DNA of 64,000 bases. Origin: Aquabacterium humicola (GTDB lineage: Bacteria; Pseudomonadota; Gammaproteobacteria; Burkholderiales; Burkholderiaceae_C). A model generated the notes under the pieces. The model did not search any database and had not been told where the DNA came from. It was given only the letters and a program-made list of their open reading frames with translations. The stretch is taken from assembly GCF_030167915.1 (NCBI RefSeq), contig NZ_JARGNB010000002.1, forward strand, positions 930,001 through 994,000, in the 5' to 3' direction. Position 1 is the stretch's first letter. The number at the start of each line of letters is the position of its first letter. Shown here one piece after another: positions 24,810 through 30,414 of this stretch. The position numbers were made by a program, and so were the translations under genes.

Positions 24810-25970
24810 ATGTTCAACGAACCCGACGAGCACCAGGAAATCCGCGACGCGGTGCGCCAGCTGTGCCGGCAGTTTCCGGACGAGTACTTCCGGCGCGTCG
24901 ACGAGAAGCGCGCCTATCCCGAGGAATTCGTCGATGCGCTGATGAAGGCCGGCTGGCTGGCCGCGATGATCCCCGAGGAATATGGTGGCACCGGCCTCGG
25001 CCTGACTGCCGCGACGGTGATCATGGAGGAGATCAACCGCTCCGGCGGCAATGCCGGCGCGGTGCATGGCCAGATGTACAACATGGGCACCTTGCTGCGC
25101 AACGGCAGCCCGGCGCAGAAGGACAAGTACCTGCCGCGCATCGCCGCCGGCGAGCTGCGCATCCAGTCGATGGCGGTGACCGAGCCGACCACCGGCACCG
25201 ACACCACCAAGATCAAGACCACCGCGGTGAAGCGGGGTGACCGCTACGTCGTCAACGGCCAGAAGGTGTGGATCTCGCGCGTGCAGCACTCGGACCTGAT
25301 GATCCTGCTGGCGCGCACGACGCCGCTGGCCGAGGTGAAGAAGAAGTCCGAGGGCATGTCCATCTTCATCGTCGACCTGCACGACGCGATCGGCAACGGA
25401 CTGACGGTGCGCCCGATCCCGAACCTGGTGAACCACGAGACCAACGAGCTGTTCTTCGACAAGCTCGAGATCCCCGAGGAGAACCTGATCGGCGTCGAGG
25501 GCCAGGGCTTCAAGTACATCCTCGACGGGCTCAACGCCGAGCGCACGCTGATCGCCGCCGAGTGCATCGGCGACGGCTACTGGTTCATCGAGCGCGCGCG
25601 CAAGTACGCGAACGAGCGCATCGTCTTCGACCGGCCGATCGGCCAGAACCAGGGCGTGCAGTTCCCGATCGCCGATGCCTTCATCGAGGTCGAGGCCGCG
25701 AACCTGATGCGCTTCGAGGCGGCGCGCCGCTTCGATGCCCACGAAGCCTGCGGTGCGCAGGCCAACATGGCCAAGTACCTCGCGGCCAAGGCCTCGTGGG
25801 AGGCGGCCAATGTCTGCATGCAGACGCACGGCGGCTTCGGCTTCGCGAACGAGTACGACATCGAGCGCAAGTTCCGCGAGACCCGGCTGTACCAGGTGGC
25901 GCCGATCTCGACGAACCTGATCTACGCGTACGTCGCCGAGCACGTCCTCGGACTGCCGCGGAGCTTCTGA
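24810..25970 (+). CDS. Acyl-CoA dehydrogenase
   Basis: FAD flavoenzyme of 386 residues. FAD and substrate motifs are present: MAVTEPTTGTDTT (121-133), GQKVWIS (150-156) and the C-terminal QTHGGFGFANEYDIERKFRE. The start at 24810 has a GAAAGAGGA ribosome site. At the place where medium-chain enzymes carry the catalytic Glu (YEGT) this protein reads QVAPIST; Glu244 in LNAERT aligns with the G-helix base used by isovaleryl-CoA dehydrogenase, so that residue probably serves instead. Context suggests oxidation of a branched acyl-CoA such as methylsuccinyl-CoA, feeding the adjacent hydratase; this is inference. Confidence 0.92.
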   Translation: MFNEPDEHQEIRDAVRQLCRQFPDEYFRRVDEKRAYPEEFVDALMKAGWLAAMIPEEYGGTGLGLTAATVIMEEINRSGGNAGAVHGQMYNMGTLLRNGSPAQKDKYLPRIAAGELRIQSMAVTEPTTGTDTTKIKTTAVKRGDRYVVNGQKVWISRVQHSDLMILLARTTPLAEVKKKSEGMSIFIVDLHDAIGNGLTVRPIPNLVNHETNELFFDKLEIPEENLIGVEGQGFKYILDGLNAERTLIAAECIGDGYWFIERARKYANERIVFDRPIGQNQGVQFPIADAFIEVEAANLMRFEAARRFDAHEACGAQANMAKYLAAKASWEAANVCMQTHGGFGFANEYDIERKFRETRLYQVAPISTNLIYAYVAEHVLGLPRSF

Positions 25971-26103
25971 CGTGCGATCTGCAGGCTCGACGACGGTGAT
26001 CGGCCCGTTGCGGACGGTCGCGGTTCTGCGCTGCATGCCCACACCGCACAAGATCAGGCCGGCAGGGCGCACGCGGGGACTGTGCATGCCGGCACCGAGC
26101 GCG

Positions 26104-26228
26104 CCAAGGCCACTGGGTGCCCGGCTCCGCTCATGTCCCCCGGGCCGTGCGCCGCTGATACGTCCCAGGCTGGATACCGGCCGGCCCTCCTCCTTGACTT
26201 CGCTACGCCGGGCACCCAGCGCCCTTGG
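26104..26228. repeat. Hairpin unit B of copy 1
   Basis: A 125-bp unit with 22-bp inverted arms at 26104-26125 and 26207-26228 (20 of 22 paired; outer ends CCAAGG/CCTTGG, inner ends GCCCGGC/GCCGGGC). Between them lies the shared core that starts CCGCTCATGTCCCCCGGGCC and ends CTCCTCCTTGACTTCGCT. Confidence 0.8.
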
Positions 26229-26272
26229 CTGTGGCGACACCGTGGCATGCGCTCCCCTGCCAGGGCGGTGCG

Positions 26273-26400
26273 GATCAGGACGGCGGGGCGCTCTGTGGAG
26301 CGAAGTCAAGGAGGAGGGCCGGCCGAGCGCCACCCGGGGCGTCACAGCGCAGCCCGGCCCGGGGGACATGAGCGGAACAGAGCGCCCCGCCGGCCTGATC
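26273..26400. repeat. Hairpin unit A of copy 1
   Basis: A 128-bp unit with 23-bp inverted arms at 26273-26295 and 26378-26400 (22 of 23 paired; ends GATCAGG/CCTGATC, inner GCGCTCTG/CAGAGCGC). Its interior is the same core as in unit B, here reversed, with AGCGAAGTCAAGGAGGAGG on the + strand, although the arms are unrelated to those of unit B. Confidence 0.8.
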
Positions 26401-26418
26401 TATTGCAGACCGAAGCAC

Positions 26419-26432
26419 GCAACGGCCGTTGC
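26419..26432. promoter_or_regulatory. Perfect 14-bp palindrome before the CoA transferase gene
   Basis: GCAACGGCCGTTGC, 47 bp upstream of the CoA transferase start and just outside repeat copy 1. It could be an operator for a local promoter; no matching site occurs upstream of the hydratase gene. Confidence 0.3.
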
Positions 26433-26479
26433 CCGTTGGATGCGTCACAGGGCGCTCAACACAAGATGGAGCCATTGAC

Positions 26480-27673
26480 ATGACGCGTCCTTTGGATGGC
26501 ATCACCGTCGTCACGCTGGAACACGCGATCGCCGCGCCGTTCTGCACCCGCCAGCTCGCCGACCTGGGCGCGCGGGTGATCAAGGTCGAGCGCCCCGGCA
26601 GCGGTGACTTCGCGCGCGCCTACGATGAGCGTGTCAAGGGCCTGGCCTCGCACTTCGTGTGGACCAACCGTTCGAAGGAGAGCGTGACGCTGGACGTCAA
26701 GCATCCCGACGCGCAGGCCGTGCTCGCGAAGCTGCTCGAAAGTGCCGACGTGCTGGTGCAGAACCTCGCGCCCGGCGCCGCGGCGCGGCTCGGGCTGTCG
26801 TTCGAGGCACTGCACGAGAAACATCCGCGGCTGATCGTCTGCGACATCTCGGGTTATGGCGATGACCCGACACAACCCGGCCCCTACCGCGACAAGAAGG
26901 CCTACGACCTGCTGATCCAGAGCGAGTCGGGTTTCCTGTCGGTCACCGGCACGCCGGACGAACCGGCCAAGGCCGGCTGCTCGATCGCCGACATCTCGGC
27001 CGGCATGTACGCCTACTCCAGCATCCTGGCCGCCCTGCTGCAGCGCGGGAAGACGGGGAAGGGCTCACGCATCGACGTCTCGATGCTCGAGAGCATGGTC
27101 GAGTGGATGAACTACCCGCTGTACTACGCGTTCGATGGCGCGACGCCGCCGTCGCGCGCCGGTGCCGCGCACGCGACGATCTATCCCTACGGGCCGTTTC
27201 CGGCCGGTGATGGCCGTACCGTGATGCTGGGCCTGCAGAACGAGCGCGAATGGGGGGTGTTCTGCCGCCAGGTGCTGAAGCAGCCGGCGCTGGAGAGCGA
27301 CGAGCGCTTCTCGGCCAACTCGAAGCGCGCGGCCAACCGCGATGCCTTGCGCGCCCTCATCATCGAGGCCTTCGGCGCCTTGACCGCCGAGCAGGTGATG
27401 CAGCGCCTGGACGAGGCGCAGATCGCCAACGCCCGCGTCAACGACATGCACGACGTCTGGCAGCACCCACAGCTGCAGGCGCGCCAGCGCTGGACCGAGG
27501 TGGCCACGCCCCGCGGCGCGATTCCCGCGCTGCTGCCGCCGGGCCGCAACGACGCCTACACGCCGCGGATGGACGCGGTGCCCGGCCTGGGGCAGCACAC
27601 CGACGCGATCCTCGGCGAGCTCGGCTTCAGCGTCGAGCGCATCGCCGCGATGCGTCGCGACGGCGCCCTCTGA
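26480..27673 (+). CDS. Class III CoA transferase (CaiB/BaiF; mesaconyl-CoA transferase-like)
   Basis: Cytoplasmic CoA transferase of 397 residues. Family motifs: PLDGITVVTLEHAIAAPFCT, LADLGARVIKVERPGSGDFAR, and the catalytic Asp region SVTLDVKHPDAQAVL / ADVLVQNLAPGAAARLGL, with YGDDP and PYRDKKAYDLLIQSESGF. The start at 26480 gives MTRPLDGI. Class III enzymes move CoA between carboxylates; in the 3-hydroxypropionate bicycle one shifts CoA from C1 to C4 of mesaconate. With the hydratase and CitE-like lyase around it, activation of a C5 dicarboxylate is the best guess. Bug and lyase genes follow closely. Confidence 0.9.
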   Translation: MTRPLDGITVVTLEHAIAAPFCTRQLADLGARVIKVERPGSGDFARAYDERVKGLASHFVWTNRSKESVTLDVKHPDAQAVLAKLLESADVLVQNLAPGAAARLGLSFEALHEKHPRLIVCDISGYGDDPTQPGPYRDKKAYDLLIQSESGFLSVTGTPDEPAKAGCSIADISAGMYAYSSILAALLQRGKTGKGSRIDVSMLESMVEWMNYPLYYAFDGATPPSRAGAAHATIYPYGPFPAGDGRTVMLGLQNEREWGVFCRQVLKQPALESDERFSANSKRAANRDALRALIIEAFGALTAEQVMQRLDEAQIANARVNDMHDVWQHPQLQARQRWTEVATPRGAIPALLPPGRNDAYTPRMDAVPGLGQHTDAILGELGFSVERIAAMRRDGAL

Positions 27674-27704
27674 GATTCCACGACGACGACAAAGGAGACA
27701 TCGC

Positions 27705-28688
27705 ATGCCGTTCCACCGTTCCCCGCTGCGCACATTGACCGCGCTCGGCGCCGCGCTGTTCACGACGCTGGCCGGCGCGCAGGGCTGGCCCAGCAAGCCG
27801 ATCACGCTGGTCGTGCCCTTTGCGGCCGGCGGCCCGACGGATGTCGTCGCGCGTCTGCTCGGCGGCGCGATGACGACGTCGCTGAAGCAGACGGTGGTGA
27901 TCGAGAACAAGACCGGTGCCGGCGGCACCATCGCCGCGGGCGCCGTGGCGCGCGCGGCGCCGGACGGCTACACCTTCCTGATCCACCACAACGGCATGGG
28001 CACCGCGCCATCGCTGTACCGCAAGCTGACCTACAACCCGCTGACCGACTTCGAGTACGTCACGCAGGTCGTCGACGTGCCGATGACCCTGCTGGGCCGC
28101 AAGGACCTGCCGGCGAAGGACTTCAAGGAACTGCTGGCCTACCTCAAGGCCAACGCGGCCAAGGTGAACCTTGCCCATGCCGGCCTCGGTGCCGTCTCGC
28201 ACCTGTGCGGCATGCTGTTCCGCCAGGCCATCGGCGTCGAGCTGACGACCGTGCCCTACCAGGGCACCGGCCCGGCGATGAACGCGCTGCTGGCCGGCCA
28301 GGTCGACCTGCTGTGCGACCAGACCACGCAGACAACGCAGCACATCAAGGCCGGCTCGGTGAAGCTGTACGGCGTGACGACGCTGCAGCGGCTGAAGACG
28401 CTGCCCGATGCGCCGACCTTGGCCGAGCAGGGCCTGCCCGGCTTCCAGGTCGTCGTCTGGCACGGCATCTACGCGCCCAAGGGCACGCCGAAGGAGGCGC
28501 TCGACAAGTTCGGTGCGGCGATCAAGGCCGCCCTGAAGGACCCGGCCGTCGGGCCGAAGCTCGCCGAGCTGGGCGCGATCACGGTCTCCGACGACAAGCT
28601 GACGCCGGCCGGCCTGCAGACCTGGCTGCAGGCGGAAACGCAGCGCTACGCACCGGTGATCAAGGCCGCGGGCCAGTTCGCCGACTGA
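27705..28688 (+). CDS. Bug-family (TctC) periplasmic solute-binding protein
   Basis: Secreted binding protein of 327 residues, with a signal peptide ending near TTLAGAQG and the signatures GWPSKPITLVVPFAAGGPTD, ENKTGAGGTIAAG, PDGYTFL and VPYQGTGPAMNALLAGQVDL. AAAGGAGA precedes the start. Lying inside the catabolic operon between a CoA transferase and a lyase, it probably binds the pathway substrate (a carboxylate) outside the inner membrane. No permease gene is adjacent. Confidence 0.93.
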   Translation: MPFHRSPLRTLTALGAALFTTLAGAQGWPSKPITLVVPFAAGGPTDVVARLLGGAMTTSLKQTVVIENKTGAGGTIAAGAVARAAPDGYTFLIHHNGMGTAPSLYRKLTYNPLTDFEYVTQVVDVPMTLLGRKDLPAKDFKELLAYLKANAAKVNLAHAGLGAVSHLCGMLFRQAIGVELTTVPYQGTGPAMNALLAGQVDLLCDQTTQTTQHIKAGSVKLYGVTTLQRLKTLPDAPTLAEQGLPGFQVVVWHGIYAPKGTPKEALDKFGAAIKAALKDPAVGPKLAELGAITVSDDKLTPAGLQTWLQAETQRYAPVIKAAGQFAD

Positions 28689-28709
28689 CCATCGCCACCG
28701 GGGCCGACG

Positions 28710-29579
28710 ATGACGACGACGCCTGACCTCGACGCGCCGCTCGCGCGCGCGCGCACGCTGCTGTTCGTGCCGGGCAACCGGCCCGAGCGCTTCATGAAGG
28801 CGCTGGCCAGTGGCGCCGATGCGGTGGTGCTGGACCTGGAGGATGCGGTGCCCGCCGATGCCAAGGTCGCGGCGCGCGAGGCGATCGCCGCCGCGTGGCA
28901 GGAGGTTCGCAGGGCGGGGCTGCCGCTGGTCGTGCGCATCAGCGCGCCGGCCAGCGAGGCCGGCATCGCCGACCTCGCCTGGCTCGCCCGTCTGCAGCCC
29001 GCGCCCGATGCCGTGATGGTGCCGAAAGCCGATGGCGTCGACGCCTTGCAGGCCGTCGTGCAGGCCGCGCCCGGCGTGCCACTGCTGCCGCTGATCGAGA
29101 GCGCTGCCGGCTGGGACGCGCTGCCGGTGATCGCGTCGACGCCCGGCGTGCTGCGCCTCGTGATCGGCCACATCGACTTCGTCGCCGACACCGGCCTGCT
29201 GTGCAGCGACGACGAGCGCGAGCTGGTGCCGTTGCGTTTCGCGGTGGCGATGCACACGCGGCTGCAGCAGCTGGCGCCGGCGATCGACGGCGTCACCGCC
29301 GCCTTCGACGACGATGCGCGGTTGCGCGCCGACACGCAGCGCGCGCTGCGCTTCGGCTTCGGCGCCAAGCTGTGCATCCACCCGCGTCAGGTGGCGGTCG
29401 TGCACGACGCGCTGGCACCGAGTGCCGACGAACGGGCCTGGGCCGAACGCGTGCTGGCCGCCGACGCGGCGTCGGGCGGCGCCGCGGTGCAACTCGACGG
29501 CCGCATGGTCGACCTGCCGGTCGTGCTGCAGGCGCGGCGTACGCTCGCGCGTTCACGTCCACCGGAAGACCGCCGATGA
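28710..29579 (+). CDS. CitE-like acyl-CoA lyase (HpcH/HpaI family)
   Basis: Lyase of 289 residues with a TIM-barrel. Motifs: LFVPGNRPERFMKALASGAD, VVLDLEDAVP, LPLIESAAG (Glu130) and IGHIDFVADTG (Asp156); these acidic residues bind Mg2+ in malyl-, citramalyl- and citrate-CoA lyases. With a Meh-like hydratase upstream, cleavage of citramalyl-CoA to pyruvate and acetyl-CoA is the likely reaction, though malyl-type substrates cannot be excluded. The full citrate lyase partners (CitD, CitF) are absent. The stop overlaps the VOC gene start by ATGA. Confidence 0.87.
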   Translation: MTTTPDLDAPLARARTLLFVPGNRPERFMKALASGADAVVLDLEDAVPADAKVAAREAIAAAWQEVRRAGLPLVVRISAPASEAGIADLAWLARLQPAPDAVMVPKADGVDALQAVVQAAPGVPLLPLIESAAGWDALPVIASTPGVLRLVIGHIDFVADTGLLCSDDERELVPLRFAVAMHTRLQQLAPAIDGVTAAFDDDARLRADTQRALRFGFGAKLCIHPRQVAVVHDALAPSADERAWAERVLAADAASGGAAVQLDGRMVDLPVVLQARRTLARSRPPEDRR

Positions 29580-29971
29580 TCGATCACCTCGACCACCTCG
29601 TGCTGACCACCGCGCACGAGGCCGACTGCATCCGCTTCTACACCGAGGTGCTCGGCATGAAGCTCGAGACCTTCGTCGGCGGCACGCCGCCGGTGGAGCG
29701 CCGCGCCTTCGTCTTCGGCGCGCAGAAGATCAACCTGCACGTCAAGGGCCGCGAGTTCGACCCCAAGGCCCACACGCCGGTGCCCGGTGCGCTGGACCTG
29801 TGCTTCATCGCCGCCGTGCCGCTGCAGCAGGTGATCGATCGCCTGGTCGCCGCCAACGTGCGCATCGTCGAAGGCCCGGTGCTGCGCACCGGTGCGACCG
29901 GCCGCATCCGCTCGGTTTATGTGCGCGATCCGGACCTCAACCTGATCGAGCTGTCGGAGCCGGCGAGTTGA
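29576..29971 (+). CDS. VOC/glyoxalase-fold protein
   Basis: Small metalloenzyme-type protein of 131 residues with two VOC half-folds. Likely metal ligands are His5 or His8 in MIDHLDHLVLT, and Glu near the end in DLNLIELSEP; the middle (RRAFVFGAQKINLHVKGRE) supplies another His. Translationally coupled to the CitE-like gene (ATGA overlap). VOC members near acyl-CoA pathways include methylmalonyl-CoA epimerases and dioxygenases or lyases; at this size an epimerase or glyoxalase-like isomerase of a pathway intermediate is plausible, unproven. Confidence 0.85.
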   Translation: MIDHLDHLVLTTAHEADCIRFYTEVLGMKLETFVGGTPPVERRAFVFGAQKINLHVKGREFDPKAHTPVPGALDLCFIAAVPLQQVIDRLVAANVRIVEGPVLRTGATGRIRSVYVRDPDLNLIELSEPAS

Positions 29972-30048
29972 TTTCGGCAGGGCGCGTTGCTCGTGACGGC
30001 TGGCGGCTCGTTGCGGATGTTCGTCGTCGCGTGCGAAGGTCTGCGCAA

Positions 30049-30176
30049 GATCAGGCCGGCGGGGCGCTCTGTTCCGCTCATGTCCCCCGGGCCGGGCTGC
30101 GCTGTGACGCAAAGGCGGAATTCCGGCCGGCCCTCCTCCTTGACTTCGCTCCACAGAGCGCCCCGCCGTCCTGATC
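30049..30176. repeat. Hairpin unit A of copy 2
   Basis: 128 bp with 23-bp inverted arms at 30049-30071 and 30154-30176 (one mismatch). The core reads in the direction opposite to unit A of copy 1: CCGCTCATGTCCCCCGGGCC comes first and TCCTCCTTGACTTCGCT last. Confidence 0.8.
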
Positions 30177-30219
30177 GCACCGCCCTGGCAAGGGATCGCA
30201 CGCCACGGTGTCGCGTGAG

Positions 30220-30344
30220 CCAAGGGCGCTGGGTGCCCGGCGTAGCGAAGTCAAGGAGAAGGGCCGGCCGAGATTCAGCCTGAGGCGTATCAGCGGCGCA
30301 CGGCCCGGGGGACATGAGCGGAGCCGGGCACCCAGTGGCCTTGG
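30220..30344. repeat. Hairpin unit B of copy 2
   Basis: 125 bp with 22-bp inverted arms at 30220-30241 and 30323-30344, carrying the same two unpaired positions as unit B of copy 1. The core is in the AGCGAAGTCAAGGAG direction on the + strand. Confidence 0.8.
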
Positions 30345-30414
30345 CGTGCTCGGTGCCAGCATGCGCCCCGTCCCCATCGTGCGCAGATCGCCGCGAACAG
30401 AGGGCAGGCCTCGG

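Follow-up and report, generated by a model that had tools for sequence, protein, structure and literature searches.

A twin-hairpin element of Aquabacterium humicola and other Burkholderiales as a candidate family of REPIN/MITE-like repeats

Introduction

Integron attC sites carry conserved 1R/2R integrase boxes at the base of a hairpin, and NEMIS is one of the miniature inverted-repeat transposable elements (MITEs) of bacteria. Closest to the case treated here are the REPINs, inverted doublets of palindromic units for which recognition as folded single strands has been proposed (PMC3116915, PMC3733652). The single repetitive extragenic palindromic (REP) unit is described as 20-40 bp long with a GTAG or CGTC tag (PMC3733652). 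Here we describe a non-coding element, made of two inverted hairpin units, that occurs twice in a stretch of 64,000 nucleotides from Aquabacterium humicola (assembly GCF_030167915.1, contig NZ_JARGNB010000002.1, positions 930,001 to 994,000 of the forward strand). This whole stretch is called the window, and positions count from its first letter; loci are numbered with L and genomes with G. The element is present in many copies, its sites differ in occupancy between related species, its stems covary around a fixed internal loop and its two units keep a narrow spacing.

Results

Two inverted copies in the window and sixteen loci in the genome

A first-pass annotation of this DNA had described two inverted copies of a block with two internal hairpins each, and the repeat and hairpin arms bear this out. 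Copies 1 and 2 form inverted repeats over 26084-26272 and 30176-30364 (93% complementary), 26273-26325 and 30124-30176 (100%), and 26339-26424 and 30025-30110 (92%). Inside them lie hairpins with 24-bp arms, at 26273/26377 in copy 1 and 30049/30153 in copy 2, and with 23-bp arms, at 26103/26207 and 30219/30323, respectively. Each copy is an inverted twin of two hairpin units of about 110-140 nt each. The core motifs M2 and M1 both occur four times in the window with 0 mismatches, a count that none of 100 window shuffles reached (means 0.00 and 0.09). All four units score 101.7-112 bits against the covariance model R1, which was built partly from these very units. The parts of the two copies, including outer ends that resemble terminal inverted repeats (TIR-like ends) and loop motifs placed by a motif scan, are as follows:

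25971-26479, no strand: copy 1, all DNA from the acyl-CoA dehydrogenase stop to the CoA-transferase ATG, 509 bp (no more than a few tens of bp in relatives)
25995-26013, plus strand: TIR-like outer end of copy 1, GGTGATCGGCCCGTTGCGG
26096-26235, minus strand: beta hairpin unit of copy 1, arms GCCAAGG..GGGTGCCCGGC, 101.7 bits with R1
26128-26146, plus strand: loop motif M1 of the copy 1 beta unit (pattern as typed)
26179-26200, minus strand: loop motif M2 of the copy 1 beta unit
26268-26406, plus strand: alpha hairpin unit of copy 1, arms GATCAGG..GGGGCGCTCTGT, 107.1 bits with R1
26303-26324, plus strand: loop motif M2 of the copy 1 alpha unit
26356-26374, minus strand: loop motif M1 of the copy 1 alpha unit (pattern as typed)
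29998-30016, plus strand: TIR-like outer end of copy 2, GGCTGGCGGCTCGTTGCGG
30043-30181, minus strand: alpha hairpin unit of copy 2, 112.0 bits with R1
30125-30146, minus strand: loop motif M2 of the copy 2 alpha unit
30213-30352, plus strand: beta hairpin unit of copy 2, 103.1 bits with R1
30248-30269, plus strand: loop motif M2 of the copy 2 beta unit

The opposite outer end of copy 1 (about 26419-26438) is too degenerate for placement. As RNA, the alpha unit of copy 1 folds with -80.7 kcal/mol (z -4.25), and a scan of 25900-26500 for promoters and terminators gave nothing. By eye, nothing in 25971-26479 has a counterpart in five relatives, and the TIR-like ends lie outside the hairpins, so the limits first drawn for the element were too short.

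Only two copies had been noticed at first. The A. humicola genome (7,386,564 bases, 44 contigs) instead holds 31 units at 16 loci, as found by motif search and covariance model. Fifteen of these loci carry two units and L015 carries one complete unit; at L013 and L014 one M1 each is split by a 69-base module.

Most comparable sites are empty in a congener

The congener compared was Aquabacterium terrae S2 (G143). There the genes for acyl-CoA dehydrogenase, CoA transferase, Bug and a CitE-like protein stand on one contig in the same order and on the same strand as in the window, with no element between the first two and with a gap from Bug to the CitE-like gene of about 0.66 kb, compared to 60 bp in the window. 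From the acyl-CoA dehydrogenase stop to the CoA-transferase start there are at most a few tens of bp in G143, G406, G413, G411 and G409. Most simply, copy 1 inserted on its own between existing neighbours. The surroundings of copy 2 have been rearranged between species, since the CitE-like gene precedes the Bug gene in G409 and the VOC and TetR genes are located elsewhere in G143.

It had also been suggested that the two copies bound a 3.6-kb cassette that was transposed or can invert. The copies are indeed inverted to each other and flank the segment, and the different placement of VOC and TetR, on the side of copy 2, would agree with a cassette. However, A. terrae keeps the four genes in order and strand beside an empty copy-1 site, and 14 further loci lie elsewhere in the A. 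humicola genome. No inversion of the segment is seen in G143, in what is a comparison between species and not strains. We therefore find a cassette hardly credible.

For the other sites, nine loci (L003, L005-L008, L010-L013) were compared by a query of joined flanks and two further ones locally. G143 has empty sites for L003, L005, L008, L010, L011 and L012; the net insertions measure 418-533 bp, and up to about 509 bp for copy 1. The sites for L002 and L004 are occupied by G143's own subtype. Together with copy 1, seven of the nine sites that can be resolved in G143 are empty there; L006, L007, L013 and copy 2 of the window could not be resolved and stand outside this count, and L014, L015 and L016 were outside the set. 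The L006 site is empty in G411, and the L012 site is empty in G409 as well. Because their sites are empty in further relatives, insertion is favoured over loss at copy 1, L012 and L006. Overall, the difference in site occupancy between species argues that the twin moves or is copied.

At the orthologous site L004/L189 the element has the same orientation in both species, and at L002/L191 the opposite one.

Covarying stems enclose a fixed internal loop

The architecture was derived from 32 units of several genera, which were aligned by sequence alone and then folded. In each unit a 23-pair outer stem is followed by a large two-sided internal loop, whose 5' side carries AGCGAAGTmAAGGAGGAG and whose 3' side carries GGGGGACATGAGCG, and then by an apical stem that is free in sequence. 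Across genera, 96.1% of stem cells pair. Changes on both sides are found for 23 of 29 pairs and in 222 cells, compared to 63.4 cells in shuffles and 15-57 with the partner slid. The apical stem, which varies in length, pairs at 94.7% of its outer four positions, compared to 62.8% when tails are reassigned; this test used 199 of the 202 distinct units found by pattern (three with an apical part of less than 11 bases were left out), which are often close relatives and do not amount to 199 independent events. Conservation is highest at the loop positions when 150 units are aligned by fitting to the model, an alignment that is biased towards that model.

The same contrast is found within the A. 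humicola genome. Among 29 of its 31 units, picked by motif and excluding the two with interrupted M1, diversity is 0-0.005 in M2 and 0-0.006 in M1, compared to 0.021-0.063 in the arms, 0.235-0.350 in the apical part, 0.107-0.306 in the inner spacer and 0.187-0.421 in the outer flank. Picking by motif lost no unit, since scans of this genome with up to 3 mismatches show none with a diverged M2: M2 is found at 31 places with 0 mismatches (one using the A allowed at the ambiguous base), and M1 at 31 places, 29 of them exact, one in a unit with 1 mismatch and one away from any unit with 2. Certain arm changes are compensated (L011, L016). It is thus the loop that is kept constant rather than the element as a whole, be it at each site or among the lineages that multiply. 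Covarying stems together with a fixed two-sided loop indicate that the unit works in the form of a folded single strand.

The two units of a twin also keep a narrow geometry. A pattern search with a 1,200-bp cut-off, which drops units with interrupted M1, gave 68 distinct twins; their distance from M2 to M2 has a median of 122 bp (interquartile range 115-132) and lies at 98-133 bp in 54 cases, which suggests that the two units act together. When twins are compared by eye, the arm tips are usually yTCTGC/GCAGAG in one unit (alpha) and CCGRC/GYCGG in the other (beta), L031 and L036 being exceptions. The whole twin can also be folded as a single long hairpin. Matching of apical loops within elements, as in kissing or copy correction, was considered and dropped: it was raised within elements in G005 (0.83 vs 0.69) but not in A. 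humicola (0.74 vs 0.79) or G276 (0.65 vs 0.65).

Could such a structure be an RNA that is retained because it serves the host, say in RNase processing, in stabilising mRNA or in binding a protein, with mobility secondary? Both stems covary and the loop is near-invariant in every A. humicola copy, the elements lie between mostly co-directional genes, and an optional insert, module X, sits at the same point of the loop in all of its 13 distinguishable copies with a second hairpin that covaries by eye; each of these fits a host function. Yet the seven empty sites in the congener and the five of 21 genus genomes without a unit imply that no site is essential, the inversion of the twins puts one unit in sense and the other in antisense on either strand, and no Rfam family reaches its gathering score in the window. 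We consider an RNA of this kind unlikely as the primary explanation.

TIR-like ends and other hairpin families

The TIR-like sequence GGCTNTCGGCCCGTTGCGG stands about 50 bp outside the hairpins in many copies of A. humicola and G143. At up to 2 mismatches it has 26 sites in the A. humicola genome, compared to 2 for a reversed control. Ten of the 26 adjoin nine of the 16 twin loci and 13 start a second, longer hairpin family, ten of the latter being cut off by contig ends; among the remaining three, two look like chance occurrences in genes. Inward from the 16 sites that are not beside twins, at most about 330-560 bases were read. Similar ends flank most of 11 G143 copies, and in nine aligned G276/G103 twins no conserved outer ends were seen, though the units are conserved.

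Such ends would fit a MITE of an ordinary DDE insertion sequence: its transposase would act on the outer terminal inverted repeats and the hairpin units would be passengers. We keep this as the main rival because of the TIR-like ends in A. humicola and G143; the G276/G103 twins, with no conserved outer ends in view, speak against it. That the same sequence starts the second hairpin family, with both inverted ends in L211, is in its favour. On the other side, the most conserved parts lie inside the hairpins and not at the ends, there is no clean target duplication, and an autonomous partner was not found, though no search for transposase genes was made at the TIR-like sites. On balance such a MITE is possible but rather doubtful.

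The second family has a core, AGCGAAGCTAAATGGACGG, that forms inverted pairs 311 and 313 bp apart in L211 and L212, L213 having one core. L211 shows both inverted TIR-like ends of this family, and ten contig-end stretches of the A. humicola genome (L201-L210) run into it. A third repeat-like stretch, with a AAAGAAAGAAG-type palindrome, starts with a similar TIR-like sequence in L215 near 635 (C40:255134 of the same genome). Beside the solo units of L097, L098, L100 and L101 are other hairpins (GAGCAGCGCAGCGAAGTCGGC...GCCGACCGCCACAGTCGGAGC) that appear distantly related to the unit, though their loop is different.

Distribution and placement

With model R1 at E 0.001, a unit was found in 21 of 60 genomes, A. 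humicola included: 16 of 21 in the genus (again with A. humicola), four of 15 others in the family and one of 24 from other families of the order. The genus genomes, drafts included, hold 0 to 31 units each, and five of the 21 have none at this threshold and with strict filters. The highest count is 43 units, in G276. A search of GTDB genomes for the exact core gave 14 stretches, with the labels Hydrogenophaga, Aquabacterium, Rhizobacter, Albitalea or Burkholderiales, and two contigs of one metagenome-assembled genome labelled Gammaproteobacteria. With up to 3 mismatches the core is found in 40 of 399 genomes of the family, a reversed-pattern control giving 0 in the rows given. Across the class, three of 274 genomes including A. 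humicola have a unit at E 1e-6, with strict filters and scoring of no more than 11 candidates in any genome. The early description of a repeated, non-coding double-hairpin element with relatives thus holds for this and other Burkholderiales genomes. Solo units also occur.

At 36 loci surveyed with a crude gene caller, which misjudged at least L009, the neighbouring genes are co-directional in 23 cases, convergent in seven, divergent in five and unclassified in one, and none of the elements lies inside a gene. In the window, the genes had been named correctly from the start as CoA-transferase III, TctC/Bug, HpcH/CitE-like and glyoxalase/VOC; acyl-CoA dehydrogenase lies upstream of them and TetR downstream.

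BLAST of the window element against plasmids and phages found no match. The unit of L040 has one partial plasmid match (49% of the query), in a 1.24-Mb Variovorax replicon with no annotated feature at that place, and none in phages. Three unit patterns, scanned for exact matches, had none in IMG/VR.

Variants of the element

Module X is an optional insert composed of GYRAGCCYGGACACAAACAGTCC-loop-GGACTGTTTGTGCCTGGCG and a second hairpin. The first hairpin is conserved (ACAAACAGTCC/GGACTGTTTGT) and the second varies. The module enters the internal loop after the same GGGGA-type sequence (GAAGGA in L102) and measures 68-70 bases up to CAyGA in 10 copies; it is followed by altered bases in L091, L191 and L163. 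It is known from stretches mostly chosen for holding units. A scan of IMG/VR with part of the module gave two matches in unrelated sequence without a unit, and one copy compared with plasmids and phages gave none. In a few pairs of units the gap between them is enlarged. These variants are:

Module X, nine genomes: L013, L014, L042, L091, L102, L116, L117, L119, L128, L130, L132, L163, L191
Enlarged gaps between units: L075, 2,825 bp; L105, 876 bp; L076, 769 bp; L132, 727 bp (with a further unit remnant); L077, 301 bp
Unit pairs with reading frames between them: L075:2281-5107, L105:595-1472, L076:972-1742

The largest gap, that of L075 (G005), encodes an ATPase that matches the ORC-CDC6-like family PF24389 (E 3.9e-10) and AAA_16 above the cut-off and a zinc ribbon below it. 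It also encodes a 290-aa protein without a family hit, whose R-x4-H motif (RHCFVH) we read, from the residues, as possibly HEPN-like. Both units of L075 are of one type, unlike the usual alpha and beta. In G103 a 184-aa reading frame lies in the 0.9 kb between units. Four between-unit proteins were searched; the L105 and L076 frames and the 290-aa protein have no accepted Pfam family, and padloc gave the ATPase two weak matches and the rest none. A comparison with the PDB, made for the ATPase alone, found no relative. Relatives of the ATPase and of the L105 frame are present on plasmids. In the five enlarged cases, the DNA between units may have been carried as cargo or may have entered a twin later. 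A possible large composite in G449, with units 18.6 kb apart, was set aside: the frames between look chromosomal by composition, and no family search was run on them.

Discussion

We lean, with modest confidence, towards each copy being a non-autonomous mobile element of the REPIN/MITE kind, made of two inverted hairpin units that are recognised when folded. An enzyme supplied in trans would recognise the unit as a folded single strand (single-stranded DNA or RNA) through its internal loop, would treat the paired units as the element's two ends and would copy or move it. Both stems may take almost any sequence provided they pair. Once inserted, the element places two very stable hairpins between genes, often co-directional ones, and may thereby also affect how the mRNAs of these genes are processed.

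Several points weigh against this explanation. For L003, L005, L008, L010 and L011 the empty site is known in G143 only, where loss is possible. At L002/L191 and L004/L189 both species carry the element, each in the subtype of its own genome; either old copies were overwritten by the resident type (concerted evolution) or the sites were hit twice. The first-pass annotation had advised counting copies and looking for flanking target duplications, and while copies and relatives proved to be many, no clean duplication is readable in eight junction comparisons, whose flanks diverge too much and which yielded one doubtful 8-bp overlap (L003). Nineteen units have no findable partner in stretches of at most about 12 kb. 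No mobilising enzyme is in hand: the A. humicola genome has no PF01797 match, this being the only transposase family searched. Finally, the loop might be conserved because each copy serves the host, and not for transposition.

A wider idea, tentative and quite doubtful, is that the paired units are the ends of an unrecognised class of hairpin-ended Burkholderiales elements, read in folded form by a kind of enzyme not linked to them so far. The usual form would be empty, with a spacer of a few tens of bp, and the ends could enclose genes, as in G005 and G103.

Whatever moves it, this is a repeat family without a catalogue entry within reach, carried by many but not most of the Burkholderiales genomes tested, with signs of recent movement and strong covariation. 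It offers a clean case for asking how a genome-wide population of hairpins is copied without a REPIN transposase, and whether long hairpins dropped between neighbours alter gene expression.

Catalogues and literature agree with the initial remark that no named element has this arrangement, within what was searchable. The window has 0 Rfam matches at the gathering cut-off. Titles and the beginnings of abstracts contain no description of the element, and two variants of the core string, on both strands, occur in no searchable main text. Loose thresholds likewise gave no family that we accept; MIR918 appeared on both strands (E 7.5e-08 and 3.3e-07, 50.5 and 47.5 bits compared to a gathering score of 268), which we take as an artefact of GC-rich hairpins. 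A 2010 survey (PMC2864571) lists a Burkholderiales-1 candidate RNA motif without an Rfam accession and with a '?' as to its being a structured RNA. That motif comes from the same bacterial order and might be the same thing, so this sequence may have been noticed before.

Among described systems, the element resembles REPINs, bacterial interspersed mosaic elements and REP doublets in being a short, non-coding, intergenic pair of inverted palindromes with a spacer of tens of bp and many copies. A REPIN moved by a REP-associated Y1 transposase (RAYT) would account for inverted doublets that fold as hairpins between genes in many copies (PMC3116915). However, PF01797 has 0 matches in the A. humicola genome, so that no Y1 transposase was found there, and the same search was positive in five of 14 control genomes, E. 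coli included; it covered this genome and the controls rather than the other element-rich genomes. The units are also about 110-140 nt and not 20-40 bp long, and no GTAG or CGTC tag is conserved, the bases before the core being GTAG, GGAG, GCAG, ACAG or GAAG. Movement by a RAYT is thus very unlikely. Unlike a REPIN, the unit is a stem, a conserved internal loop and a second stem over 110-140 nt, with the fixed sequence in the loop and the stem free, and two unit types pair.

Integron attC sites differ in turn, since here the conserved bases lie inside the hairpin and not at its base. With bacterial MITEs such as Correia, ERIC and QMITE (PMC10969869), the element shares its non-coding nature, TIR-like ends within the genus, intergenic position and a stable hairpin if transcribed. 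It departs from them in having no known parent insertion sequence and no clean target duplication. Its core is a GC-rich compound of twin hairpins, and the internal loop stays conserved across genera in which no terminal inverted repeats are seen. Our best reading is that the element looks uncatalogued and represents a new family of non-autonomous REPIN/MITE-like elements.

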